Part shown: piece after piece, positions 4,643-62,448 of the stretch
Layout of the letters: each line of letters starts with the position of its first letter
Numbering within the stretch: the first letter of the stretch is position 1
Assembly (NCBI RefSeq): GCF_003970695.1
Contig: NZ_CP034570.1
Span: forward strand, 496,001-560,000
DNA from: Maribacter sp. MJ134
GTDB lineage: Bacteria > Bacteroidota > Bacteroidia > Flavobacteriales > Flavobacteriaceae
DNA length: 64,000 bases
Direction of reading: 5' to 3'
The notes under the pieces: model-generated
Databases searched by the model: none
What the model saw: only the letters and a program-made list of their open reading frames with translations
What the model was told of the DNA's origin: nothing
Program-made: the position numbers and the translations under genes

Positions 4643-4644
4643 CG

Positions 4645-5529: not shown

Positions 5530-6487
5530 GTGATGGTATTTTCTTATGTATTTGGTATGGATATATAACGTAATAAAAAAGAATTAGTGCTAAAGAGGCT
5601 AAAATTATGAATATGGCCAACCCATCTGGCATTTCTGTATGGCGGGTTACAAAGCCCTCTAAAAAACCTGCGATAATAAAGAACGGTATGGTACTTATCA
5701 TAATTTTCAAACCATTTTTAGTACCTCTTTTAAAGGATTCCAAACGGGAGTAGGTTCCAGGAAAGAGCATACCATTGGCCAAGACCAAGCCTGCACAGCC
5801 CGCAATGATGATCACTGAAATCTCAATGGTGCCATGAATCCAAATAGTTCTAACGGATTCCCAAAGCAATCCTTTTTCGTAAAAGAAATATTGAAAACTA
5901 CCCAACATGATACCATTTTGCAACATTATCATCAATGTGCCCACGCCTAACATAATTCCGTAAACAAAGGCCATTAAAGCTACCCTTATATTATTGATAG
6001 TGATGCCTAAAAACATGTTGAACTCTCCCATTTGCTTGTAAACGGCCATGGGGTCACCTTTCTCAATATTTTGAAGCGTCATATTTACATAGGCATCTCC
6101 AAGAATGGAACGGACAAAATCCCCTTCGTTGGCGGCTGAAAAGGCTCCGACGAAAGAGAAGAAAATGAACACTAAAAACGCGATGAGCAATTCGCGATGA
6201 TGCTGTTTGAACATCATGGGGAATTCTACTTTCCAAAAACTTATGATTCTATTTTTCGGCTCTCTTTTGGTCCTATATATTTTTTGATGCGCCTGGGACG
6301 CTAAGGAATTTAGATAATGTGCCGTATTACTAGCCGGATAAAAAGTCTTGGCGTAGCTAAGGTGATCCGTTATTTCTATATACAAATTGGACAATACATC
6401 TGGCTCCAGATTCGTTTTGTTAGCCAAAGCGCTTTCAAAAGTTGACCATTTGTCCTTATTTTGCTTTACAAAGGCGGCTTCGCGCAT
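5519..6487 (-). CDS. Stage II sporulation protein M family (DUF95) membrane protein
   Basis: 322 residues. The start MREAAFVKQNKDKW is typical for Bacteroidota members. An N-terminal helical cytoplasmic region of about 100 residues is followed by five or six membrane helices, with the FVYGIMLGVGT and WIHGTIEISVII segments typical of SpoIIM. In Bacillus SpoIIM is part of the engulfment machinery; here no other sporulation gene is seen, and the family is common in non-spore-formers next to RDD and MoxR genes. First gene of the minus-strand operon; only 33 bases separate its start from the divergent RDD gene, so its promoter must partly lie in that gene. Confidence 0.9.
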   Translation of the reverse strand: MREAAFVKQNKDKWSTFESALANKTNLEPDVLSNLYIEITDHLSYAKTFYPASNTAHYLNSLASQAHQKIYRTKREPKNRIISFWKVEFPMMFKQHHRELLIAFLVFIFFSFVGAFSAANEGDFVRSILGDAYVNMTLQNIEKGDPMAVYKQMGEFNMFLGITINNIRVALMAFVYGIMLGVGTLMIMLQNGIMLGSFQYFFYEKGLLWESVRTIWIHGTIEISVIIIAGCAGLVLANGMLFPGTYSRLESFKRGTKNGLKIMISTIPFFIIAGFLEGFVTRHTEMPDGLAIFIILASLALILFYYVIYPYQIHKKIPSHEN

Positions 6488-6520
6488 TCACAGAAGGGTT
6501 TATACCAAAGAAACAAAACA

Positions 6521-7237
6521 ATGGAACAATTTCAAATAGAAACGGCCCAAAATATAAGTATAGACCAAAACACTGCTCACTTGGGAGACCGTATGTTGGC
6601 CTTTATCATAGACACCCTTATAATCGTCATCTATTATGTGCTCATGATATGGTTTTTATTGGCCTTAGATGTAGATTTGGGAGACCAATGGGCCATTTAT
6701 ATGCTCATAGGATTACCAGCGTTCTTATATTACCTTCTTTTGGAAACTTTTATGGACGGAAAGACCATAGGAAAAAGTTTCATGAAGTTGCGAGTGGTAA
6801 AGTTAGATGGCACCAAAGCTGGTTTTTCCAGTTATTTTGTTAGATGGATACTTAGAATAATAGATGTCTCCATCAGTTCGGGGGGTGTCGCCGTATTTAC
6901 CATCTTAATTCGAGGAAAAGGACAGCGCGTTGGTGATATTGCAGCAGGTACAACCGTAATAAGCGAAAAGAAACGTGTTTTTCTAAAGGACACCCTTTTA
7001 AGGGAGTTACCAGAGGATTACAGTCCAAAGTTCCCACAAGTCACTGTTTTCAAGGATAATGAAATGCAGACCATAAAGAATCTGTATGATAGCGCCAAGC
7101 GAAATGGGAACCACAATGTGGTACTGTCTTTAAGTAACCGCATTAAAAAAGTTGCTGAGATTTCAACGGACCTAAAGCCAATTGATTTTGTGGATATCGT
7201 TATCAAGGATTACAACTACTACACCCAACAACTATAA
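6521..7237 (+). CDS. RDD family membrane protein
   Basis: 238 residues. I chose the ATG at 6521 (MEQFQIETAQN) because the RDD domain begins soon after it and the longer frame would run into the divergent gene. The domain shows the defining residues in HLGDRMLAFIIDTLI near residue 25-40, membrane helices near 30-50 and 65-85, and the conserved GKTIGKSFMKLRVV turn. A C-terminal soluble extension of about 80 residues is rich in charged residues. RDD proteins may act in ion transport. The divergent arrangement with spoIIM/moxR is recurrent in Bacteroidota; the exact role is unknown. Confidence 0.9.
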   Translation: MEQFQIETAQNISIDQNTAHLGDRMLAFIIDTLIIVIYYVLMIWFLLALDVDLGDQWAIYMLIGLPAFLYYLLLETFMDGKTIGKSFMKLRVVKLDGTKAGFSSYFVRWILRIIDVSISSGGVAVFTILIRGKGQRVGDIAAGTTVISEKKRVFLKDTLLRELPEDYSPKFPQVTVFKDNEMQTIKNLYDSAKRNGNHNVVLSLSNRIKKVAEISTDLKPIDFVDIVIKDYNYYTQQL

Positions 7238-7238
7238 T

Positions 7239-7844
7239 ATGTTCTATACGGTCATCGATATTTTAGGAACCATTGCCTTTGCAATTTCAGGAGTGTTGGT
7301 GGCCATGGAAAAACGCCTCGATTTCTTTGGGGTGGTAATTATAGCCTTTGTAACCTCAATCGGAGGGGGTACGCTACGCGATTTACTCATTGGGAATACG
7401 CCCGTGGTTTGGATGCGAGATGCCACCTATGTCATCACTATTTTATCTACTGTAATCCTGGCCATACTTTTCGTTAAGCAACTAAAGTATTTTAGGAAAT
7501 CACTCTTTTTATTCGATACTATAGGAATAGGTCTGTACACTTTGATAGGGGTAGAGAAAGGATTGGATGCCGGATTGTTACCGGTAATGTGCATCGCTCT
7601 AGGAACGATTACGGCAAGTTTTGGAGGTGTGTTACGGGATATTCTTTGCAACGAAATTCCTGTAATATTCAGAAAGGAAGTATACGCAACGGTCTGTATT
7701 CTGGGAGGCGCTTTTTATTTTTTATTGATTCAATTTCCTATAAACAGCACCTATGCCTATTCTGTGGCCATACTATCCATAATCGTAATGCGGATTTTAG
7801 CGGTAAAGTTCAGAATTTCCTTGCCTAATATTTATAGGGATTAG
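7239..7844 (+). CDS. UPF0126 (TRIC-like) membrane protein, YadS/YicG family
   Basis: 201 residues, taking the ATG at 7239, which lies one base after the RDD stop codon. Six to seven membrane helices are arranged as two repeats of the UPF0126 unit: the first has AFAISGVLVAMEKRLDFFGV and GGGTLRDLLIG, the second ITASFGGVLRDILCNEIP. This paired G-G-x-x-R-D motif is diagnostic. Bacterial members belong to the TRIC cation channel superfamily, and some have been linked to glycine uptake; substrate here is not known. Likely co-transcribed with the RDD gene. Confidence 0.92.
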   Translation: MFYTVIDILGTIAFAISGVLVAMEKRLDFFGVVIIAFVTSIGGGTLRDLLIGNTPVVWMRDATYVITILSTVILAILFVKQLKYFRKSLFLFDTIGIGLYTLIGVEKGLDAGLLPVMCIALGTITASFGGVLRDILCNEIPVIFRKEVYATVCILGGAFYFLLIQFPINSTYAYSVAILSIIVMRILAVKFRISLPNIYRD

Positions 7845-7862
7845 TCTCAATTCCCTACTTAT

Positions 7863-8177
7863 TTACCTTTCTTTTTCTATTAGATACTTTTTTAGTTTCA
7901 ATTCTCTTAGTTTTTTCTCAGCTTTATTTTTACCCATTATGTATCCAATGGGATATATTATAATATAGATTATGGCACAAAATAAAACAGCGTTTTGATA
8001 TTCCCAATTTTCTATCATTGGTCTCCTTCCTCTTCGTCCTGGAATAAAGGGAAATAAAAAGGAGAAGACAAAACCACCAAAGATTCCCCAAGGAATCTTT
8101 TTTTGCATTCGTTTTAATTTATCCTGATAATTTATTATTTCGGCATTAATATTTTCAATTTCCTTATCCTCAATCAA
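7863..8177 (-). CDS. Small two-helix membrane protein, hypothetical
   Basis: 104 residues with a charged helical N-terminus (about 1-27), a membrane helix near 29-47 (IPWGIFGGFVFSFLFPFIP), a basic loop GRRGRRP, a second hydrophobic segment near 66-85 and a lysine-rich tail. I do not recognise a family. It is very AT-rich but has plausible composition, lies alone between the convergent UPF0126 gene and the cyclophilin gene on its own strand, and could be co-transcribed with the latter (24-base gap). Real but of unknown function is the best reading. Confidence 0.6.
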   Translation of the reverse strand: MIEDKEIENINAEIINYQDKLKRMQKKIPWGIFGGFVFSFLFPFIPGRRGRRPMIENWEYQNAVLFCAIIYIIIYPIGYIMGKNKAEKKLRELKLKKYLIEKER

Positions 8178-11044: not shown

Positions 11045-11539
11045 TTATGGATTCAAAATGGTTCTTAATTTGTTTTTGATACGGTTCATCTTAACTCTGG
11101 CATTTACTTCTGTAATCCCCAGTGTTTCAGAAATTTCCATATAATTTTTATCTTCCAAGTACATAAAGACCAAGGCCTTGTCAATATCTCCTAACTGCCT
11201 AACTGCCTTGTACATCAACTTAAGCTGTTGTTCCTCCGTCTCATCGTATTCGTCGGCTTTTATTTTATAAATTACAGACTCATAGTCCTGCGTGTCAACA
11301 CGTCGCTTAGACTTTCTATACAATGTAATGGCCGTATTCAACGCAACCCGGTACATCCAAGTACTAAATTTGGCTTCGCCCCTAAATTTTGGATAGGCCT
11401 TCCACAGCTGAATGGTTATTTCCTGAAACAAATCGTTATGAGAATCGCGGTCGTTTGTATACAACGTACAGACCTTGTGAACAATGTTTTGATTGTCCTG
11501 CAGTTCCGTCACAAATTGATGTTCCAGCTCTTTATTCAC
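11045..11539 (-). CDS. ECF-type RNA polymerase sigma-70 factor
   Basis: 164 residues. Region 2 is visible in DLFQEITIQLWKAYPKFRG and FSTWMYRVALNTAI near 36-72, and region 4 in LVFMYLEDKNYMEISETLGI with its helix-turn-helix near 125-150. It is a two-domain ECF sigma factor that would direct RNA polymerase to a small regulon, probably in response to an envelope signal passed on by the membrane protein encoded 4 bases downstream. The regulon is not evident in the window. Confidence 0.92.
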   Translation of the reverse strand: MNKELEHQFVTELQDNQNIVHKVCTLYTNDRDSHNDLFQEITIQLWKAYPKFRGEAKFSTWMYRVALNTAITLYRKSKRRVDTQDYESVIYKIKADEYDETEEQQLKLMYKAVRQLGDIDKALVFMYLEDKNYMEISETLGITEVNARVKMNRIKNKLRTILNP

Positions 11540-11624
11540 GCTTGGTTGGTAGTTCTTACGAGATAAGTGTGTACAGGGTTCTTTTTGTTACAACAAAAAG
11601 GAAGTTTTTATTGTTACATAGCCG

Positions 11625-11681
11625 CCAGTAGCCAGTAGCCAGTAGCCAGTAACCAGTAGACAGTAGCCATTAGCAGTAACC
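11625..11681. repeat. Tandem 7-bp repeat (ccagtag)
   Basis: About eight consecutive copies of ccagtag with increasing divergence toward the right end (ccagtag three times, ccagtaa, ccagtag, acagtag, ccattag, cagtaac). It lies in the 153-base gap between the start of the ECF sigma gene and the end of the M20 peptidase gene. A 7-bp unit outside a coding region would be free to change copy number; its position upstream of the sigma gene could affect promoter spacing. Confidence 0.8.
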
Positions 11682-11692
11682 GTTCGACTTTA

Positions 11693-13120
11693 CTAATTTC
11701 TATAGTCCAACGCCGGTGACCGTTCACCCAGCAAAGGAATATATTTAAAATCCGTTCCTCTTCGGTCCACGAATTCTTTCCTGGCCTCACTGACTAATTG
11801 TTTGTTCTTGAATAGATCAATAGCCGTAAGTGTTAGTGTTTTTGCCGCTATCATCATTCCCTTGTTGCCTATAGAGGTTCCGCCCGCCGCAACGGCCTGC
11901 CAGCTATGCGCGGGAGTACCTGGCACCCACGTAGAGGCGCTCATACCTACCGTGGGTACAGCAAAACTAACATCTCCAACATCCGTTGAGCCAAAAGCTT
12001 TTGCTTCCGTTTTATAAGGCTGTATCTTTTTAGCGGTATCACTGTCAACACCGTCTTGGCCTAAACTCTTGGCAATTTTATCCGCGAATATCTTTTCTTC
12101 AGGCGTGTACTCCATGCCACCGATTTTGGATAGATTATCGTGCATTAATTTTTGTAATGTCAGGTTCGGCAGTAGTTCATGGGTTCCGCCGATCATTTCA
12201 TAATCCATAGTCGTACCTGTACCTAAAGCGGCTCCTTCGGCAGCTTTAACGATACGGTCAAAAATCTCGATGACTACATCCCTCGTATTGTGGCGCGCAT
12301 AGTAATACACTTCTGCAAAATCTGGAACTACGTTCGGAGCTTTTCCGCCATCTGTGATTACATAATGAATTCTGGCTTTTTCAGGGATGTGCTCTCGCAT
12401 CATGTTCACCATCATGTTCATGGCCTCCACGCCATCTAAAGAGGAGCGACCCATTTCTGGAGATGCCGCGGCATGGGCGGATACACCGTAAAAACGAAAT
12501 TTAGCCGATTTATTGGCCAACGCAGCTCCCGCACTGGCCGCATTTTGAGCTCCGGGATGCCAATGAAGGGCAACATCTACATCATTAAAAAGTCCTTCTC
12601 GTACCATGTAGACTTTTCCAGAACCACCTTCTTCGGCAGGAGTTCCATAAAAACGAATGGTCCCTTGCATCTTATTGGCCTTTAGCCAGTCCTTGGTAGC
12701 GATTGCGGCAGCAGTAGAGGCCGTGCCGAACAGGTGATGTCCACAGGCATGCCCCGCTACTTTTCCGGCTGATTTTTTTTCGGCTACTGCTTGTTGGGAT
12801 AATCCGGGCAAGGCATCATACTCGCCCATAATCCCGATTACGGGATTTCCACTACCATATTCCGCAATAAAGGCCGTAGGTATTCCGGCAACGCCTGTTT
12901 TTATGGTAAAGCCTTCATCTTCCAGTGTTTTTTGAAGTAAAGCAGAACTTTTAACCTCTTGATAACCCATTTCGGCCAAACCCCAAATCTCTTGAGCTAT
13001 GTTGGCATAGGTCTCGCTTTTGGCATCTAATCTTTTTAAAACATCATCCGTTGTTTTTTGAGCCTGTACGGTATACTGGGATACGAGTAAGAAAACTAAG
13101 ATGTAAAGGGATTTGTACAT
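11693..13120 (-). CDS. M20 family amidohydrolase (AbgB-like), secreted
   Basis: 475 residues. A signal peptide (about 1-20, ending VQAQ) is followed by the M20D fold: IGIMGEYDALPGLSQQ, the metal ligands in AGHACGHHLFGTA (near 120-130), the acidic pair in YGTPAEEGGSGKV and LHWHPG. The closest functional family is AbgB, which hydrolyses p-aminobenzoyl-glutamate; related enzymes act on N-acyl amino acids or indole-amino acid conjugates. The signal peptide puts this one in the periplasm, so it probably scavenges amidated compounds. It stands alone between a sigma operon and the divergent NDH-2 gene. Confidence 0.88.
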   Translation of the reverse strand: MYKSLYILVFLLVSQYTVQAQKTTDDVLKRLDAKSETYANIAQEIWGLAEMGYQEVKSSALLQKTLEDEGFTIKTGVAGIPTAFIAEYGSGNPVIGIMGEYDALPGLSQQAVAEKKSAGKVAGHACGHHLFGTASTAAAIATKDWLKANKMQGTIRFYGTPAEEGGSGKVYMVREGLFNDVDVALHWHPGAQNAASAGAALANKSAKFRFYGVSAHAAASPEMGRSSLDGVEAMNMMVNMMREHIPEKARIHYVITDGGKAPNVVPDFAEVYYYARHNTRDVVIEIFDRIVKAAEGAALGTGTTMDYEMIGGTHELLPNLTLQKLMHDNLSKIGGMEYTPEEKIFADKIAKSLGQDGVDSDTAKKIQPYKTEAKAFGSTDVGDVSFAVPTVGMSASTWVPGTPAHSWQAVAAGGTSIGNKGMMIAAKTLTLTAIDLFKNKQLVSEARKEFVDRRGTDFKYIPLLGERSPALDYRN

Positions 13121-52126: not shown

Positions 52127-53026
52127 TTGAAAGTAAAAAAGTTTGCGGCTATCGATATTGGATCTAATGCCATACGTCTGTTGACCCATAACGTAATAGA
52201 AGAGCAGGGTAAGAAAACACAGTTCCGTAAAAGTGCCCTTATCAGGGTGCCCGTTCGTTTGGGTGAGGATTCTTTTACCGTAGGAGAAATTTCAGAACAC
52301 AATGTAGCCCGTATGGTAAAGACCATGCTGGCCTTTAAGCTTTTAATGGATGTTGCTGGTGTCCAAAATTATAGGGCATGCGCAACTTCCGCAATGCGAG
52401 AAGCCAATAACGGTAATGAGGTCATCAATCTCATTGCCGAGAAATCGGGCATACAGATAGAGGTCATAGATGGCAAACAAGAAGCAGCAATAATAGCTTC
52501 CACGGATTTAAAGGAAATTATTAAGGAAGACCAATCTTATCTGTATATCGATGTTGGAGGTGGTAGTACTGAGTTTACTTTGTTTACAAAAGGAAAAATA
52601 AAGTTATCCAAGTCGTTTAAGTTAGGTACGGTAAGATTATTAAAGGACTTAGTAAAAGAAAGTACCTGGTTAAGGTTGCAAGAATGGATTCAAGAAAATG
52701 TCAAGGATGCACCAAAGCTATCGATTATAGGTTCTGGGGGAAATATAAATAAATTGCATAAGATGTCCGGTAGAAAGGAGGGAGAACCTTTGTCTTATAT
52801 TTGGCTGAACGCACAGTATCGCTTTTTGGAAAGTTTAAGTTATGACGACCGTGTATCCGAATTGGGATTGAATCCCGATAGAGCGGATGTTATCATACCC
52901 GCAACGCGAATATTTTTATCCGCAGCAAAGTGGAGTGGTGCAAAAAAAATTCATGTACCCAAGATTGGACTATCGGACGGGATTATCAAAAACCTATATT
53001 ATAGTCAAAAAGAAAATAAGGCTTAG
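52127..53026 (+). CDS. ppx: Exopolyphosphatase / guanosine pentaphosphate phosphohydrolase family
   Basis: 299 residues from a TTG at 52127; the first residues KVKKFAAIDIGSNAIRLL are the phosphate-1 motif of the family, so no later start is possible, and no ATG or GTG precedes it in frame after the ppk1 stop. DVGGGSTEFTLF near 143-154 is the second phosphate motif. It is the short two-domain form without the HD domain of E. coli Ppx. It shares TTAG with the convergent miaE stop. Confidence 0.93.
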   Translation: MKVKKFAAIDIGSNAIRLLTHNVIEEQGKKTQFRKSALIRVPVRLGEDSFTVGEISEHNVARMVKTMLAFKLLMDVAGVQNYRACATSAMREANNGNEVINLIAEKSGIQIEVIDGKQEAAIIASTDLKEIIKEDQSYLYIDVGGGSTEFTLFTKGKIKLSKSFKLGTVRLLKDLVKESTWLRLQEWIQENVKDAPKLSIIGSGGNINKLHKMSGRKEGEPLSYIWLNAQYRFLESLSYDDRVSELGLNPDRADVIIPATRIFLSAAKWSGAKKIHVPKIGLSDGIIKNLYYSQKENKA

Positions 53027-53604
53027 CCGTGAATAGTTTCCTTAGTGCTTAAATTTTTCATGATTTCCGCTTCGTAATCAAGCAAGTCCTGCCATTTTTT
53101 ATTCACGGTTTCCAATTCACCGTACTTGCGTGCAAATTTCAAGAACATGGTGTAATGAGAAGCTTCACTCACCATTAATTTATAATAAAATTCAGCCAAT
53201 TCTTTATCTTCTAGTTGCTCTGACAAAAGTCTAAAACGCTCACAACTTCTTGCTTCAATAAGTGCGGCATAAAGCAGTCTATGTACCAGTTGTGTGGTTC
53301 TACTACCACCTTTAGGGAAAAATTTAACCAGTTGTAGCACATATTCGTCCTTGCGGTCTCTTCCTAATGTTTTTCCCCGTGCAATGATTCTATCATGTAC
53401 CATTTTAAAATGGCCCATTTCCTCTCGCGATAAGGCGATCATTTCTTCAATAAGTTCCGTATACTCCGGGAAAGAGACAATCAAGGAAATAGCCGTGCTA
53501 GCTGCCTTTTGTTCGCAATAAGCATGGTCCGTAAGTATTTCATCAATATTTTTTTCAACAATATTTACCCATCTTGGGTCCGTTGGTAGTTTAAGACCTA
53601 GCAT
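53023..53604 (-). CDS. miaE: tRNA-(ms2io6A37) hydroxylase MiaE
   Basis: 193 residues. A ferritin-like di-iron protein: CEQKAASTAISLI near 31-43 (first Glu), SREEMGHFKMVHDRI near 74-88 (ExxH), EARSCERFRLL and EASHYTMFLKFA (second ExxH). The family hydroxylates the isopentenyl group at tRNA position 37. A minus-strand -7 element (TACTTTTG) lies 48 bases upstream, in the divergent region shared with the ebo operon. Confidence 0.92.
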   Translation of the reverse strand: MLGLKLPTDPRWVNIVEKNIDEILTDHAYCEQKAASTAISLIVSFPEYTELIEEMIALSREEMGHFKMVHDRIIARGKTLGRDRKDEYVLQLVKFFPKGGSRTTQLVHRLLYAALIEARSCERFRLLSEQLEDKELAEFYYKLMVSEASHYTMFLKFARKYGELETVNKKWQDLLDYEAEIMKNLSTKETIHG

Positions 53605-53705: not shown

Positions 53706-54563
53706 ATGGCATACATGCACGTAAGCAAGGACATTTATGAGATCTTAAGTTCTTGCGCCGAGCAAGAAGCAATGGCTTGGTTGTTAGACCGTATCGCTAA
53801 AATTGAAGATTCACGAACTACAAGGGATTTGTTCATGGGCTATAGTCTATTGGCTTCAAAGTTTAGTGCAGACCAATCCATGGAGTCAAACCCAAAGGTT
53901 TCTGATGCAATTACTTTGTTTTCCGCCCACAAGGCAAGTTTACTGGAAGTGTCAAGAATTTATCTTTTAGTAAAAGTACTGGAAATAGATTTCGGTCACT
54001 TTAGTCCTCAAGTGAATCGTATCATTGAGGTTGCGGATACGGCGGAGCTAGAAACATTTTTAAAATATTTGGTTTTATTGCCAGATGCCCAACGCTTCAA
54101 GAATACGGCAGTAGAAGCTTTGCGCACTAACATCGCTACCATTTTTGATGCTATAACTTTAAATAACCTCTATCCCGCTAAGTATTTCAATGACCAACAA
54201 TGGAACCAAATGTATCTTAAAGCTGCCTTTATGGAAAGGGACTTATCTCTGATACAAGCCGTTGATGAGCGAGCAAACAAGGACCTTTCCCGTATTATTT
54301 CGGACTATGCACATGAACGGTGGGCCGCCTCTAGGAATATTGACCCTATGTTTTGGCGTCCGGTAACTAAATTCATAGACGATGTATTGCTTTTGGATAT
54401 GGAACGTCTACTTTCTAGTGACAATGAGATTGAAAATAGGGCCGGCGGACTCTGTTGTTTTTATTCTCAAGATGATAGGGCACTGAAATTGCTCAACCAA
54501 TATCCGAAATTGGAAAAACAGATTGCATCAAAAGAAATAACTTGGAACACCTTAAAGAAATAG
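53706..54563 (+). CDS. eboA: EboA family protein
   Basis: 285 residues, almost wholly helical, no signal peptide, no catalytic motif. The pattern CAEQEAMAWLLDRI near 17-30, DFGHFSPQVNRII, YLVLLPDAQRF and the aromatic C-terminal SDYAHERWAASRNIDPMFWRPV is what I associate with the EboA family. The function of EboA is not known; it is defined by its constant presence in the ebo cluster. First gene of the operon, 3 bases before eboB. Identification rests on both sequence pattern and the following five genes. Confidence 0.85.
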   Translation: MAYMHVSKDIYEILSSCAEQEAMAWLLDRIAKIEDSRTTRDLFMGYSLLASKFSADQSMESNPKVSDAITLFSAHKASLLEVSRIYLLVKVLEIDFGHFSPQVNRIIEVADTAELETFLKYLVLLPDAQRFKNTAVEALRTNIATIFDAITLNNLYPAKYFNDQQWNQMYLKAAFMERDLSLIQAVDERANKDLSRIISDYAHERWAASRNIDPMFWRPVTKFIDDVLLLDMERLLSSDNEIENRAGGLCCFYSQDDRALKLLNQYPKLEKQIASKEITWNTLKK

Positions 54564-54566
54564 ACA

Positions 54567-55475
54567 ATGGAAGATAAATTGATGATAATAGACCCGCATG
54601 TGCACATGACCTCGCGCACTACAGACGACTATGAAGTCATGGCTGCAGCAGGTGTTGTAGCCGTCATAGAGCCATCCTTTTGGCTAGGGCAACCCAGAAC
54701 ACAAGTAGGGTCTTTTCAAGACTATTACAGTAGTTTGGTAGGTTGGGAACCCTTTAGGGCAAGTCAATTTGGGATAAAGCATTATTGTACGATAGGACTC
54801 AACTCCAAAGAAGCTAATAATGAAGCACTAGCAGAACAAGTGATTGAATTGTTGCCGCTATATCTGCATAAAGACAATGTTGTGGCGATCGGTGAAATTG
54901 GTTACGATGACCAGACTCCGGCAGAGGATAAGTTCTTTAGGATGCAATTGGATATGGCCAAGGAATTGGATATGACCGTTCAGGTCCATACACCACACAG
55001 AGATAAAAAGGCAGGCACCATTAAAAGTATGGAGGTATGTCTAGAACACGGATTAGACCCCGCTAATGTAATCATAGACCATAATAACGAAGAGACGGTA
55101 AAAGAGGTACTGGATAGAGGTTTCATTGCAGCTTTCACAATTTATCCCAAAACCAAAATGGGTAATGAACGTATGGTTGAGTTGGTGCGTAAATTTGGCA
55201 GTACTAATATTATCGTTGATAGCTCTGCAGATTGGGGCGTGAGCGACCCGTTAGCTGTTCCAAAAACAGCTTCATTAATGCTTAAACGAGGTATTCCCAA
55301 GGAGGATGTCGTAAAAACATGCTATCAAAATGCATTAGATGCCTTTGGTAAAAACGGAAAAATGAAAGAGGAACATTGGATGAAACCAAATAGCATTGAT
55401 CAGTCCCAACTTTTTAACGACAATAGTGTACTACGTGGTCAGAAACCTCGGATTGATGATGACCAAATCACCTAG
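54567..55475 (+). CDS. eboB: TatD-like metal-dependent hydrolase (EboB)
   Basis: 302 residues. The amidohydrolase/TatD barrel shows IDPHVHM (His11, His13), Glu110 in AIGEIGYDD, His141 in VQVHTPHRDK, His172 in IIDHNNEE and a likely catalytic aspartate in VDSSADWG near 218-222. All metal ligands expected for this fold are present, so it is probably active. The usual TatD substrates are nucleic-acid ends, but in the ebo context the substrate is unknown. One base before the chosen eboC start. Confidence 0.88.
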   Translation: MEDKLMIIDPHVHMTSRTTDDYEVMAAAGVVAVIEPSFWLGQPRTQVGSFQDYYSSLVGWEPFRASQFGIKHYCTIGLNSKEANNEALAEQVIELLPLYLHKDNVVAIGEIGYDDQTPAEDKFFRMQLDMAKELDMTVQVHTPHRDKKAGTIKSMEVCLEHGLDPANVIIDHNNEETVKEVLDRGFIAAFTIYPKTKMGNERMVELVRKFGSTNIIVDSSADWGVSDPLAVPKTASLMLKRGIPKEDVVKTCYQNALDAFGKNGKMKEEHWMKPNSIDQSQLFNDNSVLRGQKPRIDDDQIT

Positions 55476-55476
55476 A

Positions 55477-56376
55477 ATGAGAAAAAAAATTATGGGTTTT
55501 GCCCGTTTGGCAAGACCTGCAAATTTGCCTACTGCTGCAGCTGATATTCTTGCTGGTGCGGCTATAGCTGATTTTTTTAGCATTAACAATGATTTTGTTG
55601 CTATTACGGATGATGCTTCAAAACTAATTTTACTAGTGGTTTCGTCAATATGCTTGTATGCAGGTGGCGTAGTTTTCAATGATGTTTTCGATGCAAAGTT
55701 AGATGCTGTCGAACGGCCCGAAAGAGCAATTCCCAATGGTGTAGTCTCATTACGGCAGGCCGTACTTTGGGGTAGCCTATTAATTCTTGTTGGGTTAATC
55801 TTAGCTTTAAACGTAACGCTATTAAGCGGAATAATTGCTTTGGTGCTCACGGCTTCAATCTTTTCTTACGATGCTTATTTTAAGCAATTTGGTTTTTTTG
55901 GCCCATTAAATATGGGTACTTGCAGAGGTCTTAATCTTATGTTGGGGATGTCCATAATCGGAGATATCACGACTTGGTGGGTCGCTATCATTCCGGTTCT
56001 CTATATTTTTGCTATTACTTTAATAAGTAGGGGGGAGGTACATGGCAACAACAAAAATCATATTATAAAAGCAGCGGTGATGTATATTGTCGTTGTGGTA
56101 TTATTAACGCTCGCTATCGGTATTTATACTACTAATTTGCTATGGGCATTACCTTTTCTATTTTTATTTGTTGTTTTAATTTTTAGGCCTCTATGGAAGG
56201 CATATCGGATAAATTCTCCCGAGAATATTAAGAAATCTGTTATTGTAGGGGTAGTATCCTTAGTGGTCATAGATGCCTGCTGGGCCGCTGGTTTTTCCAA
56301 TATTTATGTTGGATTAGCCGTTTTATTACTTTTGCCCCTATCTTTAGTACTCTCTAAATTATTTGCGGTTACTTAA
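55477..56376 (+). CDS. eboC: UbiA-like prenyltransferase (EboC)
   Basis: 299 residues from the ATG at 55477, which follows the eboB stop by one base (upstream in-frame ATGs at 55456 and 55459 would overlap eboB; one at 55492 is also possible). Eight or nine membrane helices. The first Asp-rich motif of UbiA enzymes is NDVFDAKLD at 67-75, followed by ERPERAIPNG; the second region is SYDAYFKQFGFFG. It should transfer a prenyl chain to a soluble or lipid acceptor in the inner membrane. Donor and acceptor are unknown. Confidence 0.9.
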   Translation: MRKKIMGFARLARPANLPTAAADILAGAAIADFFSINNDFVAITDDASKLILLVVSSICLYAGGVVFNDVFDAKLDAVERPERAIPNGVVSLRQAVLWGSLLILVGLILALNVTLLSGIIALVLTASIFSYDAYFKQFGFFGPLNMGTCRGLNLMLGMSIIGDITTWWVAIIPVLYIFAITLISRGEVHGNNKNHIIKAAVMYIVVVVLLTLAIGIYTTNLLWALPFLFLFVVLIFRPLWKAYRINSPENIKKSVIVGVVSLVVIDACWAAGFSNIYVGLAVLLLLPLSLVLSKLFAVT

Positions 56377-56381
56377 GCCAT

Positions 56382-57542
56382 ATGAAATTAAAGCCTATTA
56401 CACAGTCTTTTTCGGTTCGGTATGAATACAACTTGTATTTTACCCAAGGTTTGTTTCAAAGAGGCAACAGTGTATTTCTAGATATTTTAAAGGGTTACAA
56501 AGCCGATGAAAAAATAAAATTACTCTTCGTAATCGATAAAGTCGTTTCTGCAGCGCATCCAGATTTGTTAAATCAAATAGAAGCATATTGCGAAGCAAAC
56601 CCTAATCATTTAAATTATACGCAGACGCTACTCATTGCGGGGGGAGAGCAGTCCAAAAACAAAGCTGAACTCGTAGATACGATACTCAAGGGCATCAACG
56701 AAAACGCTATTTGCAGACATTCTTTTGTGGTTGTCATAGGAGGTGGGGCCGTAATAGATATGGTTGGCTATGCCGCTACAATTGCCCATAGGGGTGTAAA
56801 GTTAATTAGGATACCTACCACGGTACTCGCGCAAAACGATGCTGCCGTTGGCGTAAAGAATAGCGTTAATGCTTTTGGAAAAAAAAATTTCTTGGGAACT
56901 TTCGCCACACCTTTTGCGATTATAAACGATAGCGACTTTCTAAAGACATTAACACAACGCGATTGGATTTCCGGTATTGCCGAAGCCATTAAGGTTGCGC
57001 TGATAAAGGACAAGCTTTTTTTTGAGTATATAGCTAAAAACGCCATCCCATTGAAGATGCGGGAGATGGATGCCATGCATCATGTTATTTATACATGCGC
57101 CCAAATGCACATGCATCATATCGCGCAAGGAGGAGACCCTTTTGAATCTGGTTCTTCAAGACCGCTGGATTTTGGGCACTGGGCGGCGCATAAACTAGAA
57201 CATATGACCAATTATGAATTGCGTCATGGAGAGGCCGTTGCCATGGGTATAGCCTTAGATGTTACCTATGCTCATTTAGTTGGACTAATTACAGAAAAGG
57301 AATTGCAGGTAATATTGGAGGTGCTTAGTACCATAGGCTTTAATTTGCAACTTCCGATAGGAACAGGAGAAGAAATAAGTCAACTATTAGGTGGTATCGA
57401 AGAATTCAGGGAACATTTAGGAGGTAAACTAACCATTACATTACTATCCGAAATTGGTAAAAAGCACGATGTACACGAAATAGATGTAGCCCTAATGCGA
57501 AAAGCGATAGAAGACCTCCGGGACCAACCAATTTTAAAATAA
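56382..57542 (+). CDS. eboD: Dehydroquinate-synthase-like sugar phosphate cyclase (EboD)
   Basis: 386 residues. The fold is that of 3-dehydroquinate synthase: GGEQSKN at 87-93, NAD-binding GGGAVIDMVGYAA near 120-132, PTTVLAQNDAAVGVKNSVN near 145-163. Metal ligands are Glu201, His266 and His282 (GIAEAIK, DFGHWAAHK, LRHGEAVAMG). The SSVGGKTG loop of true AroB is AAVGVKNSVN here, and the chain is longer than AroB, so a different cyclised sugar phosphate is likely. Central gene of the ebo operon. Confidence 0.88.
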   Translation: MKLKPITQSFSVRYEYNLYFTQGLFQRGNSVFLDILKGYKADEKIKLLFVIDKVVSAAHPDLLNQIEAYCEANPNHLNYTQTLLIAGGEQSKNKAELVDTILKGINENAICRHSFVVVIGGGAVIDMVGYAATIAHRGVKLIRIPTTVLAQNDAAVGVKNSVNAFGKKNFLGTFATPFAIINDSDFLKTLTQRDWISGIAEAIKVALIKDKLFFEYIAKNAIPLKMREMDAMHHVIYTCAQMHMHHIAQGGDPFESGSSRPLDFGHWAAHKLEHMTNYELRHGEAVAMGIALDVTYAHLVGLITEKELQVILEVLSTIGFNLQLPIGTGEEISQLLGGIEEFREHLGGKLTITLLSEIGKKHDVHEIDVALMRKAIEDLRDQPILK

Positions 57543-57548
57543 TCAGAC

Positions 57549-58742
57549 ATGTTCATAGAAGATACTTTTCATCTTTCGTATTGCACGAATATACATCCAG
57601 GACAGGATTGGGAAAGTACTTTCCAGAGTTTGAAAGATTACGTTCCTAAAATTAAGCAAGAGGTATCACCGGAGCATTCCTTTGGATTAGGGTTGCGTTT
57701 GTCCAATAAAGCCAGTGAAGAATTAGGGCAGGGCAATAATATGGTAGGTTTTAAGCAATGGTTAAATCAAAACAACGTATATGTATTTACCATGAACGGT
57801 TTTCCCTACGGAAACTTTCATGATGAACGGGTGAAAGAAAACGTACACGCACCAGATTGGACGGCCCAGAAGCGTGTTGACTATACCATTAGGCTTTTCA
57901 ATCAACTAGAAACCTTACTGCCCAAAGGACTTTCGGGAGGGATATCCACTTCTCCCATTAGTTATAAATATTGGCATAAGACCAATGCGGATAAAAACAG
58001 AGCTTTTGAGCTTGGTGCTAGGAATATGATCAAGGTAGCAAAACATCTTTTTGATTTGGAGCGAGTTACCGGAACATATATGCATTTAGATGTAGAGCCA
58101 GAGCCGGACGGTCTCTTGGAGAATAGTGATGAGGTGCTCTCTTTTTATGAGGAATATTTAGTTCCCATAGGACTTATGACGTTGAAGGATGAGCTAGGTC
58201 TTGAAGCTTCCGAAATTGAGAACATTATAAAAAGGCACATAACCGTTTGTTATGATATTTGCCATTTTTCCTTGGCTTATGAGGAGCCTACTGATACTTT
58301 TAAGAAGTTTAAATCGGCCCATATTAATGTAGGTAAGATTCAAGTCAGTGCTGCCCTGAAAATCTTGTTTAATGGCAAGGATGATGCAAGGATTTGGAAA
58401 TTACTTTCACAATTCAACGAACCCACCTATTTACATCAGGTAACGGAAAAAATGGATAATGGGGTAAAAACATATAACGATCTTCCCGTAGTTTTAGAGA
58501 ATAAGCATAGTTTTAAGGAACTGCGAGCCCATTTTCATGTGCCCATTTTTGTGGAAGAATTTGGCCCGTTGTTTTCTACGCAAGACCATATTTTAAAAGT
58601 AATAACTTTCTTAAAAGAGAATCCGCTGACGGAGCATCTTGAGATAGAGACCTATACTTGGGATGTCTTACCTATTGAACTAAAGGAAGATCTGGGGAAC
58701 TCAATTGTTCGTGAGATCAACTGGTTAAAAGACCGCTTATAG
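57549..58742 (+). CDS. eboE: Metabolite traffic protein EboE (TIM-barrel)
   Basis: 397 residues. The start LSYCTNIHPGQDWESTF and later HLDVEPEPDGLLENSDE, TVCYDICHFSLAYEEP, HINVGKIQVSAAL and VFVEEFGPLF are consistent with a xylose-isomerase-like TIM barrel with a carboxylate/histidine metal centre. In other organisms EboE is reported as part of a cluster needed to move a precursor to the periplasm, and the protein itself has no known reaction. No signal peptide is seen here, so it acts in the cytoplasm. Confidence 0.87.
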   Translation: MFIEDTFHLSYCTNIHPGQDWESTFQSLKDYVPKIKQEVSPEHSFGLGLRLSNKASEELGQGNNMVGFKQWLNQNNVYVFTMNGFPYGNFHDERVKENVHAPDWTAQKRVDYTIRLFNQLETLLPKGLSGGISTSPISYKYWHKTNADKNRAFELGARNMIKVAKHLFDLERVTGTYMHLDVEPEPDGLLENSDEVLSFYEEYLVPIGLMTLKDELGLEASEIENIIKRHITVCYDICHFSLAYEEPTDTFKKFKSAHINVGKIQVSAALKILFNGKDDARIWKLLSQFNEPTYLHQVTEKMDNGVKTYNDLPVVLENKHSFKELRAHFHVPIFVEEFGPLFSTQDHILKVITFLKENPLTEHLEIETYTWDVLPIELKEDLGNSIVREINWLKDRL

Positions 58743-58743
58743 T

Positions 58744-60117
58744 ATGAAAAAAACGGTAGTCATCAATGTGGTAGGTTTAACCAAACGCCTAATAGGTGAA
58801 CATACTCCTTTTATAAAATCGTTTTTAGAAAAGGGAACATTCAACTACATAAAACCCGTATTGCCAGCGGTTACTTGTTCAGCGCAATCTACATACCTTA
58901 CCGGTAAATGGCCATCGGAACATGGTGTCGTGGGCAATGGTTGGTATTTTAAGGAAGAATGTGAGGTTAAGTTTTGGCGGCAGTCCAATAAATTGGTACA
59001 ACAACCGAAAGTATGGGATGTTTTAAAAGCAAAAAACCCGGACTTTACCTGTGCTAACCATTTTTGGTGGTACAATATGTATTCCACTGCAGACTATAGC
59101 ATAACACCTAGGCCTAATTATTTGGCGGACGGTCGTAAAATACCCGATATATATTCACATCCAGCAGATTTGAGAGATAAGGTTCAGGCCACTTTAGGTA
59201 CTTTTCCCTTATTTGAATTTTGGGGGCCTAGAACCACGATTAATTCTTCGCAATGGATAGCGGATGGGGCAATGGAAACGGATAAACTTCATGATCCTAC
59301 CTTAACATTTATCTATTTACCACACCTAGATTACAATCTACAGCGCTACGGACTTGATTTTGATAGCATCGCCAAAGATTTACGGGAGATAGATGGGGTA
59401 GTGGCGGAGTTGGTAAATTATTATGAAAACCAAGGTGCAAACATTGTTCTACTATCTGAGTATGGTATTACTAATGTAAATAATCCCGTACACCTTAATC
59501 GGGTCTTAAGGAAAAATGGCTACCTGAGCATAAGAACGGAGCGCGGTCTAGAGCTTTTAGATGCTGGGGCTAGTAATGCGTTTTCCGTTGCAGATCATCA
59601 GATAGCCCATGTGTACGTGAAGGACAAATCTAGCATTATGGCCATTAAGAACTTATTGCAAAAGATAGATGGCGTACAGCAGGTGCTGTCCGGAACAGAA
59701 ATCCAAAAAGAACATTTGCAACATGAACGCTGTGGTGACCTCGTCGTCCTAGCCGATAAGGATTCGTGGTTTACCTATTATTTTTGGATGGATGATGCCA
59801 AGGCACCAGATTATGCAAGAATGGTGGACATCCATAAAAAACCGGGATACGATCCCGTTGAAATGTTGACCAATCCTAAGGATAAATTTGTAACTGCTAA
59901 GGTGCTTTGGAAGCTTTTTAAAAAGAGGTTGGGCTTTAGAACGGTAATGAATATTATACCTGTAGATGCTACATTGATCAAAGGATCCCATGGGCGCATT
60001 CCAGAAGATATAGAAGATTACCCTATGTTAATTACCAATTATAGCATACCGCAGGAAGAGGCCATGATTAAAGCCGTAGCTGTACGCAAAATCATTGAAG
60101 ATCACGTAATAAAATAA
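58744..60117 (+). CDS. eboF: Alkaline-phosphatase-superfamily phosphodiesterase-like protein (EboF)
   Basis: 457 residues. The nucleotide pyrophosphatase/phosphodiesterase fold is recognisable from LPAVTCSAQSTYLTGKWPSE, with Thr44 in the nucleophile position. The first metal-binding aspartate expected near residue 9 is replaced (NVVGLT), and the later DH pair is E-Y (LLSEYGI, 238-242); Asp197 and His416 (GSHG) remain. The metal site therefore looks incomplete compared with classical NPP enzymes. Conserved in ebo clusters as EboF. No signal peptide. Two bases after the eboE stop. Confidence 0.83.
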   Translation: MKKTVVINVVGLTKRLIGEHTPFIKSFLEKGTFNYIKPVLPAVTCSAQSTYLTGKWPSEHGVVGNGWYFKEECEVKFWRQSNKLVQQPKVWDVLKAKNPDFTCANHFWWYNMYSTADYSITPRPNYLADGRKIPDIYSHPADLRDKVQATLGTFPLFEFWGPRTTINSSQWIADGAMETDKLHDPTLTFIYLPHLDYNLQRYGLDFDSIAKDLREIDGVVAELVNYYENQGANIVLLSEYGITNVNNPVHLNRVLRKNGYLSIRTERGLELLDAGASNAFSVADHQIAHVYVKDKSSIMAIKNLLQKIDGVQQVLSGTEIQKEHLQHERCGDLVVLADKDSWFTYYFWMDDAKAPDYARMVDIHKKPGYDPVEMLTNPKDKFVTAKVLWKLFKKRLGFRTVMNIIPVDATLIKGSHGRIPEDIEDYPMLITNYSIPQEEAMIKAVAVRKIIEDHVIK

Positions 60118-60123
60118 GTTGAT

Positions 60124-60477
60124 ATGAATATATTATTTAAGGTTATCGGTTGTTTGTTTACTGTTTTATTCACTTTAGGTGCGGTGGTGCAGTACAATGA
60201 TCCAGATTCATTGGTGTGGATTATAATTTATGCCATCGCCGCGGTAATTTCACTGCTTTTTGTACTTAACAGATTAAAAATAGTAGTGCCTTTAGTTTTA
60301 GGGGTATTATGTTTCGCAGGCTTTGTTTATTTATATCCACCGGATTTTCAAGGTTTCGATTTAAATGATGGAGATATTAGGACGGTTGAGCTGGGTAGAG
60401 AGGCCTTTGGACTCTTAATAATCGCTATCGTATTTTTTCTGTACGTCTTTGGCTTAAAGAGAATGTCAAAGATCTAG
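60124..60477 (+). CDS. TMEM220-like small membrane protein at the end of the ebo operon
   Basis: 117 residues with four hydrophobic helices. The segment AVVQYNDPDSLVWIIIYAIAA near 21-41 (QYNDPD, W, Y) is the signature of TMEM220-type proteins found from bacteria to animals; none has a known function. It starts 6 bases after eboF on the same strand and overlaps the convergent dnaX by 12 bases. It may belong to the ebo transcript, though it is not part of the six-gene core as usually described. Confidence 0.8.
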   Translation: MNILFKVIGCLFTVLFTLGAVVQYNDPDSLVWIIIYAIAAVISLLFVLNRLKIVVPLVLGVLCFAGFVYLYPPDFQGFDLNDGDIRTVELGREAFGLLIIAIVFFLYVFGLKRMSKI

Positions 60478-62448
60478 GTCAAACTCTTTTCGTAACAGGT
60501 CTATGGCCGGGTTCTTTTCTCTTAACTTTTCATACTTCTCCTCTGGGGTAAAAGCGAATTTCTTAGCAGTGGCCTCGTTTACGGAAATTTCAAGTTGAAT
60601 GAAGTGATTGTTGAGCTTAGCCCTTAAGTATTCCATAAGGTCGTAGTTGCCACGTTCAATTTCCTTTTTCATCGTACCATTAGGAAGTTCAATACTAATG
60701 GTGAAATTTTCTTTTAGTTTCGGAATATCCGTATTTAAGTTCGATGCAAGTATTTTTTGACCTTTAGCATCAATTTCTTGAACAAAATCTGCCCAGTGTT
60801 TTCTTAACTCTTCTTCGGTAAAGTCGTCCTTAGGTAGCGCATCCTCGTCTAGAACAACCTCAATTCTGTTGAGTTCGTGCTCTTTTTTAGCCTTTAAACT
60901 AGAGATGGATAGGCCAGAAACCCGTTTTTCGGGTACGGTAATATTAATTTTTTTCGCAACCGGTTCTTGTCGTGTGGTTGTTGTTTTAACGGCATTAGTA
61001 GAGGGGTAAACCTTGTATACCGGCTCCGTGGGTTGGCCGTTATTTTTTGTATTAATTTCTTTAGCAACCGGTTCTTGTACCGTAGTCGGTATTTCAGTAG
61101 TATTTGTAAGGGGCTGTACTTTTTTTATTGGTGCTGTGCCTTGCTGAATGTTGTCTTCTATAAAATGAGGAGCCTCTATTTCTTCTCGTTCTTCCGCTTT
61201 AGGGGCATGTTGCTCAACTAATTTTTGAAATGTTTCCGCTCGCTGCTCGGGTAAAGTATTCGTTTCGTTACTAGGTTCGGAAAGCGCGTTTTGCTTTGGT
61301 TTTGGGGTAGTGTTCTCGTAAAAGGAGGCAGGGGCAATAAAGTCTATTGTTTTGTCCTGTACTGCTACTGATTCAGGATTTTTTTTTTCTCCATCAAAGT
61401 CGATAGAGGCTAATTTCATCAACGAAAGCTCTACCAAAAGCCGTTGATTTTTACTGGTTTTGTATTTCAGGTCACAATCATTGGCAATATCCAATGCTTT
61501 CAATAGAAAACTACTCGACGTACGTTGGGATTGTTCTCGATAACTTTTTTGAGCCATTTCACCCACTTCTAAGAGCGCTATGGTGTCTTGATGCTGGCAT
61601 ACCATCAAATCCCTAAAATGTGAAGCCAGACCAGCTATAAAATGATGCCCGTCGAATCCAAGACCTAAGGTTGTGTTGAACAATACCAATAAGTGCGGAA
61701 TATTATGTTCTAATATCAGGTCGGTTGCCTCGAAATAGGTATCATAATCCAAGACGTTTAAATTTTCTGTCACCGCTTTTCTAGTGAGGTCCTTTCCGGA
61801 AAAACTTACAACCCGGTCAAAGATGGAGAGTGCATCACGCATGGCGCCATCCGCTTTTTGAGCAATGATATGTAGCGCATCTTCTTCAGCATTGATATCT
61901 TGGCTCTCCGCAATATATTTCAAATATTCTGCGGCATCCTTTACGGTTATCCGCTTAAAATCAAAAATTTGACAACGAGATAAAATCGTAGGAATAATTT
62001 TGTGTTTTTCCGTTGTGGCAAGAATAAAAATAGCATGTTTTGGAGGCTCCTCTAAGGTCTTTAAAAAGGCGTTGAAGGCACTTGTGGATAGCATATGTAC
62101 CTCGTCAATGATATAGACTTTGTATTTACCCACTTGTGGCGGTATGCGCACTTGATCTATCAAACTTCTGATATCATCAACGGAATTGTTGGAAGCCGCA
62201 TCCAGTTCAAAAATATTAAAGGCAAAATCTTCATCCGGACTTTCGGTTCCGTCGGCGTTTATTTGCTTTGCAAGAATTCTAGCACATGTAGTTTTACCGA
62301 CACCTCTGGGGCCGCAGAAAAGCAGGGCCTGTGCCAAGTGATTGTTATCTATTGCATTTTGGAGAGTATTGGTAATGGCCCGTTGCCCAACAACATCTTT
62401 AAATGTTTGAGGTCTATACTTCCGTGCCGATACTATAAATGGTTCCAA
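60466..62448 (-). CDS. dnaX: DNA polymerase III subunits gamma and tau
   Basis: 660 residues. Walker A CGPRGVGKTTCA near 44-55, Walker B YIIDEVHMLS, and the arginine-finger region ILSRCQIFDF. The loop that holds the zinc cysteines in E. coli DnaX is replaced by INADGTESPDED, which lacks all of them; this is the form I know from other Flavobacteriia. A low-complexity proline/threonine/glutamate region (about 360-510) precedes the tau-specific C-terminus. It loads the sliding clamp. A minus-strand TATATTTG at 62471 is a likely promoter. Confidence 0.95.
   Translation of the reverse strand: MEPFIVSARKYRPQTFKDVVGQRAITNTLQNAIDNNHLAQALLFCGPRGVGKTTCARILAKQINADGTESPDEDFAFNIFELDAASNNSVDDIRSLIDQVRIPPQVGKYKVYIIDEVHMLSTSAFNAFLKTLEEPPKHAIFILATTEKHKIIPTILSRCQIFDFKRITVKDAAEYLKYIAESQDINAEEDALHIIAQKADGAMRDALSIFDRVVSFSGKDLTRKAVTENLNVLDYDTYFEATDLILEHNIPHLLVLFNTTLGLGFDGHHFIAGLASHFRDLMVCQHQDTIALLEVGEMAQKSYREQSQRTSSSFLLKALDIANDCDLKYKTSKNQRLLVELSLMKLASIDFDGEKKNPESVAVQDKTIDFIAPASFYENTTPKPKQNALSEPSNETNTLPEQRAETFQKLVEQHAPKAEEREEIEAPHFIEDNIQQGTAPIKKVQPLTNTTEIPTTVQEPVAKEINTKNNGQPTEPVYKVYPSTNAVKTTTTRQEPVAKKINITVPEKRVSGLSISSLKAKKEHELNRIEVVLDEDALPKDDFTEEELRKHWADFVQEIDAKGQKILASNLNTDIPKLKENFTISIELPNGTMKKEIERGNYDLMEYLRAKLNNHFIQLEISVNEATAKKFAFTPEEKYEKLREKNPAIDLLRKEFDLDL

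Follow-up and report, generated by a model that had tools for sequence, protein, structure and literature searches.

The ebo gene cluster is widespread and has no known product. In a window from Maribacter sp. MJ134 (the whole stretch of DNA analysed here, 64,000 nucleotides; RefSeq assembly GCF_003970695.1, contig NZ_CP034570.1, positions 496,001 to 560,000), a complete eboA-F cluster is followed by a gene for a small membrane protein of the TMEM220 family. Judged by comparison of genomes, this gene looks like a real ebo partner within Bacteroidota, with support that goes beyond adjacency. The seven open reading frames (ORFs), identified from the ORF list and by profile searches, all lie on the + strand within positions 53706-60477. 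The TMEM220 family gene (60124..60477, +) begins 6 bases after eboF, where the first-pass annotation had placed a TMEM220-like gene. Its 117-residue product has four predicted transmembrane helices and matches PF15071 with 76.6 bits, against a cut-off of 27. No other gene in the 4.0 Mb single-contig genome matches PF15071.

The ebo cluster itself was already known, and what looks new here is TMEM220 as its partner. The word TMEM220 is absent from the main text of the report that first described the operon, passages of which leave extra genes inserted in ebo operons unanalysed (PMC5133447). A literature search for TMEM220 together with bacteria and Bacteroidetes found none, with subscription papers mostly outside the search, which makes this no proof of novelty; the papers on TMEM220 among the matches listed bear titles of human or other animal work. 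The best-studied ebo role, moving a precursor over the inner membrane, comes without a dedicated exporter, and the published model, in passages of PMC6282210, borrows a capsule-type ATP-binding cassette (ABC) permease. As a small membrane protein inherited along with ebo, TMEM220 is a specific candidate for a partner of the cluster and can be targeted by deleting a single gene; the ebo linkage also offers its family a first bacterial setting.

TMEM220 beside ebo clusters of Bacteroidota

Named ebo loci were taken as the 80 best of 589 confirmed EboE-alignment matches; they lean towards the kin of the window, are nearly all Bacteroidota by title, and some come from genomes that also belong to the class sample described below. 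With a TMEM220 profile built from the window protein and 29 fetched TMEM220 sequences, one of which is the window's copy, TMEM220 was found to adjoin ebo in 44 of the 80 loci, and in 42 of the 67 loci that offer at least 1.5 kb on both sides. The linked loci display four layouts. TMEM220 directly follows eboF in most Flavobacteriaceae; it precedes eboA on the same strand in all Sphingobacteriaceae (7/7) and also in Jejuia, Salegentibacter and an Allomuricauda metagenome-assembled genome (MAG); it is divergent, about 400-520 bases upstream of ebo, in 4 of 10 Chitinophaga; and it is convergent downstream of ebo in Adhaeribacter. Genome G510 carries TMEM220 116 bases upstream of its EboE match.

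Within 1.5 kb of ebo, TMEM220 occurs in 43 of the 80 loci and in three named families, and the next gene cluster spanning three families reaches 10 loci. At the same distance, dnaX (28 loci) and miaE (27 loci) are confined to Flavobacteriaceae. A TMEM220 tree of 93 rows, made by a quick method on few columns, requires 11 label changes to account for the linked copies, at least 6 of which are forced by starred branches.

One genome, G363, has two TMEM220 genes, one beside ebo (L142) and one elsewhere (L181). In the tree, the unlinked copy clusters with those from genomes that lack ebo, two of them of the same genus, and with ebo-linked Chitinophaga copies. The neighbours of unlinked TMEM220 genes are mostly variable, with one same-strand cluster recurring in 17 of 42 unlinked loci. 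In two examples (L170, 4088-6848; L162, 6505-9152) this cluster lies directly upstream of TMEM220 and encodes carboxypeptidase-regulatory domains, joined in L162 by a TonB plug.

Joint occurrence of TMEM220 and ebo

Whole genomes were searched for TMEM220 in 45 of the 80 named cases: all 36 that lack a copy beside ebo and 9 that have it there. The other 35 were counted by their linked copy. The profile exceeded its cut-off in 41 of the 45 searched, and thus in 76 of 80 when the 35 with a linked copy are included; 32 of the 36 named ebo genomes without a linked TMEM220 keep a copy elsewhere. The four genomes that lack it are Fodinibius roseus (Balneolaceae, with a rearranged ebo), Zhouia amylolytica, and the MAGs L090 and L119. 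In Zhouia amylolytica, eboE (L109, 9974-11197) is the sole ebo gene of its 21 kb locus.

In larger genome samples, ebo was scored by the presence of EboE, with matches below the family cut-off excluded (G457, G603); the p values come from Fisher tests, which ignore kinship. Among 395 genomes of the window's class, its own included, 22 have EboE, 50 have TMEM220 and 21 have both, so that TMEM220 is present in 21/22 ebo-positive and 29/373 ebo-negative genomes (p 3.6e-20). The class of G418 (Fodinibius) gives 19, 26 and 12 among 117 genomes, which corresponds to 12/19 against 14/98 (p 2.5e-5). The order of G433, a sample that shares genomes with the window's class, gives 66, 64 and 57 among 194 genomes, or 57/66 against 7/128 (p 2e-31). 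The association persists when the class sample is collapsed to genera (15/16 against 15/181, p 2e-13) and when 30 genomes below 2.5 Mb are removed from the G433 order (57/66 against 7/98, p 2e-26).

Shared ancestry was addressed with a FastTree phylogeny of one marker, rpoB, covering 100 of the 194 G433-order genomes. It took in the 8 of 9 ebo-only and 4 of 7 TMEM220-only genomes with a listed rpoB place, 51 of 57 genomes with both genes and, by listing order, 37 of 121 with neither. This tree yields 9 independent pairs that contrast in ebo across well supported branches. Averaged over 200 pairings, TMEM220 differed the same way in 6.7, the opposite way in 0.0 and not at all in 2.3 of the 9 pairs (median p 0.016, range 0.016-0.125; one opposed pair in one of the 200 pairings). 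miaE served as a control gene. In the G433 order above 2.5 Mb it is present in 59/66 ebo-positive and 87/98 ebo-negative genomes (p = 1), and it tracks ebo in 0.2 of the 9 pairs. We therefore rejected miaE as an ebo gene: it often adjoins ebo, yet is not associated with it across genomes. The linkage survey, the joint occurrence, the independent pairs and the miaE control together uphold the earlier suggestion that TMEM220 belongs to ebo, at least within Bacteroidota.

The relationship is one-sided. EboC exceeded its cut-off in 0 of 50 genomes with TMEM220 only, and these are hence not hidden ebo genomes. On the tree of the G433 order, the four TMEM220-only genomes form one clade, and the occurrence of ebo without TMEM220 needs 6 separate changes. 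TMEM220 thus seems to depend on ebo or on what ebo makes, and ebo can persist without TMEM220.

A predicted outward-facing polar site in TMEM220

The structural model of the window TMEM220 (predicted local distance difference test score, pLDDT, 94.8; alignment of 76 sequences) comprises helices at residues 3-25, 29-47, 54-70 and 85-116, and on this prediction the protein has the four transmembrane helices of PF15071. For charge counts, the helix limits were set by hand from the model. Lysine plus arginine amount to 1.20 residues per sequence at the N-terminus, 1.57 in the middle loop and 2.26 at the C-terminus. Of the two outer loops, the first has 0.22, and the second has 3.05 together with 5.55 aspartate plus glutamate. 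The charges are predicted to obey the positive-inside rule, with both ends cytoplasmic.

Across the 76 sequences, N25, D26, W32, E93 and G96 never vary, and D28, Y36, E89 and R92 are almost as strictly conserved. In the predicted topology, the conserved polar residues all fall on the two outer loops and the outer helix ends. As they cluster at the outer side, the model suggests that they form a site facing the periplasm. Acidic residues are nearly missing from the helices themselves, at 0.01, 0.00, 0.01 and 0.03 per sequence for helices 1 to 4.

Small transporters of the SMR type carry a membrane-embedded glutamate. No such residue was found in TMEM220, and an SMR-type assignment was rejected. 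A fold search against the PDB gave no match at E <= 0.001, and a profile search of PDB sequences returned a single chance-level match (E 0.34). The best match among predicted structures, from a viral library, is an uncharacterised protein of pithovirus LCPAC104 (E 3.4e-3, probability 1.00, TM-score 0.78 over the query), which hints at a viral TMEM220-like protein.

The ebo cluster of the window and its proteins

The packed eboA-F cluster described in the first-pass annotation is borne out by matches to Ebo profiles and by gaps of 1-6 bases, and is of a kind already in print (PMC5133447, PMC6282210). The order eboABCDEF on a single strand is that of an ABCDEF-type ebo operon, and EboC and EboE exceed their curated cut-offs. 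From eboA to TMEM220 the gaps measure 3, 1, 5, 6, 1 and 6 bases. In-frame ATGs at 55456, 55459 and 55477 are candidate starts for eboC, and the 1-base gap to eboB becomes an overlap of 17 or 20 bases if one of the earlier starts is used.

eboA (53706..54563, +) encodes an all-helical protein of 285 amino acids. It matches the EboA domain model NF035938 with 144 bits (cut-off 50) and misses the stricter family model NF035937 (166.5 of 320 bits). Its AlphaFold2 model (pLDDT 95.3) has 18 helices with just weak HEAT/ARM-like matches; against the PDB, no fold match was found at E <= 0.001, and a profile sequence search was also empty. eboB (54567..55475, +; 302 amino acids) encodes a TatD-like metallo-hydrolase (PF01026, 65.4 bits, cut-off 27), whose TatD-type motif H-x-H, E, H, H, D is invariant across 93 rows; we take these residues to be the ligands they are in TatD. 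The UbiA-type prenyltransferase gene eboC (55477..56376, +; NF035940, 357.5 bits, cut-off 250; UbiA, 70.8, cut-off 34.2) carries the aspartate-rich motif N-D-x-x-D-x-x-x-D in all of 94 rows. The EboB and EboC row counts contain a few duplicates. eboE (57549..58742, +) encodes a TIM-barrel protein of 397 amino acids (NF035939, 482.4 bits, cut-off 250) with 72 invariant columns in an alignment of 22 sequences; an EboE profile search of PDB sequences gave no match.

eboD (56382..57542, +; 386 amino acids) encodes a sugar phosphate cyclase (PF01761 DHQ_synthase, 117.1 bits, cut-off 24.2; PF24621, 110.2). Its top NCBIfam model is named for 3-dehydroquinate synthase (DHQS; PRK06203, 557.7 bits, cut-off 333). 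We rejected this assignment, since the genome encodes AroB separately, in a second PF01761 gene at G000:C1:1155152, and the DHQS-type residues are replaced in EboD. At positions that we presume to line the DHQS active site, IRKVLNYGH of AroB reads SSRPLDFGH and KYDKKNSHG reads EEFREHLGG. The resulting signature (GVKN, RPLDFGHW, EF-EHLGG) is common to at least 95% of 100 EboD rows (97 distinct), including 5 plasmid-borne ones, four of them from outside Bacteroidota. By sequence, the protein is of the EboD kind and not a DHQS.

eboF (58744..60117, +; 457 amino acids) encodes a member of the alkaline phosphatase superfamily with an altered metal site (PF01663 Phosphodiest, 211.1 bits, cut-off 23). 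It was aligned by profile to NPP (2gsn) and to the phosphonoacetate hydrolase PhnA (1ei6); single-domain alignments were weak (about 14-23 bits each, the His416 region below zero), with clear flanking motifs. We take the two-metal set of these enzymes to consist of the ligands D, D, H, D, H, H and the nucleophile T, and mapped it on EboF accordingly. The first aspartate is replaced by V10, a histidine by Q200 and the Asp-His pair by E239-Y240, so that four of six metal ligands are exchanged, one of them conservatively (Asp to Glu, E239). All four substitutions are present in 104 of 104 rows (101 distinct), of which seven are plasmid-borne, from Bacteroidota, Deinococcota, Pseudomonadota and Actinomycetota. 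T44 and D196 are kept in every row and H416 in 103, with one gap, matching conserved NPP/PhnA residues. A canonical NPP/PhnA phosphodiesterase was thus rejected as an identity for EboF. Contrary to the phosphodiesterase prediction in passages of PMC5133447, an ordinary two-metal enzyme appears unlikely, given the replacement of four ligands in every row. The "phosphodiesterase-like" label given to EboF earlier holds for its family and fails at its metal site. This argues against the usual annotation and alters how the pathway should be assayed.

The unit is flanked upstream by the divergent miaE (53023..53604, -; PF06175, 147.2 bits), outside the unit, and downstream by the convergent dnaX ORF (60466..62448, -; NF011531, 714.1 bits). 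Since TMEM220 and the 3' end of the dnaX ORF share 12 bases, the seven-gene unit probably ends at this overlap. A Bacteroidota promoter pattern matched 7 times in the window against 4.0 expected, with none upstream of eboA, and sigma-70 and terminator scans of the window stayed at chance level. Among the matches listed, EboE has its best ones in an uncultured Flavobacteriaceae contig (70%) and in Maribacter zhoushanensis (68%), and the window TMEM220 is 71% identical to the Maribacter litopenaei copy. In the complete genome of the latter (L060), eboA (6129-6958) and eboF (11423-12285) are each broken into two ORFs, through either a sequencing error or gene decay.

A possible far-side step of the ebo pathway

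We postulate a seven-member unit in which the Ebo proteins make a prenylated cyclitol-type lipid and TMEM220 is an accessory acting on this product at the outer face of the membrane, a reading that we favour by a modest degree. The six Ebo proteins would assemble the lipid on the cytoplasmic side of the inner membrane: EboD would form the cyclitol ring, EboE and EboB would remodel it, EboC would add the prenyl chain in the membrane, EboA would act as a scaffold, and EboF would bind a phosphate-bearing ligand, not cutting in the usual two-metal way. TMEM220 would depend on the ebo product and work at the outer face, where it might hold the lipid or its cargo, flip it, modify it or pass it on. 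Four parts of this scheme are our inference: what the product is, on which side of the membrane each Ebo protein works, in which order the steps run and how TMEM220 acts. A prenylated cyclitol, a published guess in passages of PMC5133447, is consistent with the gene content, and an ebo-dependent TMEM220 with a predicted outward polar site fits such an outer-face step.

Several observations weigh against this scheme. Adjacency alone is weak evidence because in Flavobacteriaceae it is part of a wider synteny in which miaE and dnaX are conserved around ebo as well, the miaE cluster neighbouring 28 loci. Linked and unlinked TMEM220 copies form no separate clades. TMEM220 is dispensable for keeping ebo, being absent from 1/22, 9/66 and 7/19 ebo-positive genomes of the three samples, and the 29/373 ebo-negative Bacteroidia that have it include some in which it stands beside unrelated genes; 11 genomes of one genus (g18) in the class sample carry TMEM220 without EboE. 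G392, of the window's family, keeps TMEM220 without ebo, directly between miaE and dnaX (L158, G392:C1:3657000-3670000, 6887-7890), where the window has ebo and TMEM220. The TMEM220 profile matched nothing in seven ebo loci carried on plasmids, of which six belong to Deinococcota, Pseudomonadota and Actinomycetota, and tblastn of the window TMEM220 against plasmids, a single and insensitive query, gave no match either. Finally, the EboC homologues that were assayed preferred an aromatic quinoline acceptor, and passages of that report mention no cyclitol among the acceptors (PMC9235831).

One side observation concerns a locus of G030 (L172, G030:C32:56000-65316, 4622-6985), where eboA, a short eboF piece and TMEM220 stand in a row with no eboB-E between them. 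It looks like an ebo remnant that keeps TMEM220; neither EboE nor EboC exceeds its cut-off in this genome.

Three alternatives are each rather unlikely in our judgement and survive about equally well. TMEM220 could be a small flippase of the ebo lipid, by analogy to the four-helix ArnE/ArnF or EmrE. Its size and helix number are right, and in Nostoc a metabolite requires ebo to cross the inner membrane (passages of PMC6282210). However, helices 1-3 hold almost no buried charge, no solved protein matches in sequence or fold, some ebo-positive genomes lack TMEM220, and the Nostoc authors, in passages of the same paper, propose a lipid carrier moved by the capsule-type ABC permease instead. The "transporter or flippase" of the first-pass annotation is accordingly one of several possible roles. 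With a similarly low expectation, TMEM220 could be a membrane enzyme whose acidic and arginine site on the outer face chemically finishes or recycles the ebo lipid. The conserved N, D, D, W and Y, together with E, R, E and G at the outer helix ends, resemble a ligand or catalytic site more than a channel, and the one-sided dependence on ebo would suit an enzyme; the lack of a matching solved fold speaks against it.

The third of these alternatives, also doubtful, holds that the ebo pathway ends in a secondary metabolite, soluble or aromatic, and not in a carrier lipid. In its favour, passages of PMC9235831 report that EboC homologues farnesylate 8-hydroxyquinoline-2-carboxylic acid in vitro, an acceptor that came from a substrate screen and is not the natural one. 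Likewise, the EDB cluster, which contains ebo (passages of PMC6282210), is tied to indole products (passages of PMC9655573). Against this, an indole link can reflect cargo and not product, and every ebo deletion studied in Nostoc leaves the same scytonemin monomer in the cytoplasm with no gene-specific intermediates, the ebo role there being to move this precursor to the periplasm (passages of PMC6282210).

The weakest alternative, which we regard as highly improbable, is that TMEM220 is an unrelated housekeeping membrane gene near ebo in some lineages and co-occurs with it through shared ancestry or genome size: the conserved miaE and dnaX surroundings in Flavobacteriaceae, the ebo-less G392 locus and the unlinked copies in 32 of 36 named genomes would agree with it, but the association outlasts genus collapsing, small-genome removal and independent pairs, the equally adjacent miaE shows no association, and linked copies sit on several branches of the TMEM220 tree with at least 6 forced changes.

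Returning to the seven-member unit, a broader proposal can be attached to it. Human TMEM220, which we take to belong to PF15071, shares with the window protein the Pfam family name. The endogenous human protein is Golgi-located, and its knock-down disturbs the Golgi and glycoprotein secretion (passages of PMC6979480). We speculate that TMEM220 is the far-side ebo component in Bacteroidota that receives, on the outer face of the inner membrane, a prenyl-cyclitol lipid or a metabolite carried by that lipid, that EboF is a non-cleaving phosphate-binding member, and that the TMEM220 family, including the human Golgi protein, handles polyprenyl- or cyclitol-type lipids; this combination is unlikely to hold as a whole.

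Relation to known ebo systems and variants

The ebo operon was first described in eustigmatophyte plastids, Bacteroidetes and Cyanobacteria, with EboA reported to lack an export signal (passages of PMC5133447). The window has the same six genes, order, strand and families as the ABCDEF-type operon of that report and, unlike it, continues into TMEM220. The scytonemin-linked ebo of Nostoc punctiforme (passages of PMC6282210) shares its gene families with the window, which differs in having eboD inside the operon and no scytonemin enzyme among the ten window proteins scanned. The Ubi-297/EboC proteins of Maribacter, Zobellia and Algoriphagus share both prenyltransferase family and bacterial groups with the window, and the passages of PMC9235831 on Ubi-297/EboC do not mention TMEM220.

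An ebo-like cluster on a plasmid of Streptomyces sp. NBC_00663 (L234, 2936-11546) is annotated with an inositol-3-phosphate synthase and an SCO3242-type prenyltransferase; no EboD-type cyclase is annotated, and a ScyD/ScyE family protein is annotated upstream. This actinobacterial SCO3242-type cluster shares with the window an EboA domain, TatD, EboE, a pyrophosphatase-type protein and a related prenyltransferase; the window EboC scores 139.9 bits against NF045897, under the cut-off of 260. Unlike the window, it has the inositol-3-phosphate synthase in place of an annotated EboD-type cyclase, and the TMEM220 profile matches nothing nearby. That the same position is filled by either of two unrelated enzymes that form cyclitols speaks for a cyclitol core. 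By analogy with these variants, glucose 6-phosphate may be an alternative to sedoheptulose 7-phosphate as the EboD substrate. In Ketogulonicigenium, two Gfo/Idh/MocA oxidoreductases adjoin eboD, a variant that likewise favours the cyclitol reading.

A homologous gene pair lies just upstream of ebo on plasmids of two phyla, Aureibacter pAT1 (L228, 2064-5124) and a Mycetohabitans plasmid (L233, 3051-6069). One member is a protein of about 600 amino acids (38% identical over 616, E 5e-120), whose Aureibacter copy has no Pfam match. The other is ferritin-like and matches PF12902 with 229.6 and 206.1 bits; we take PF12902 to be the domain found in VioB-type enzymes, whose substrates are indole-pyruvate imines, and this would agree with the link between other ebo clusters and indoles.

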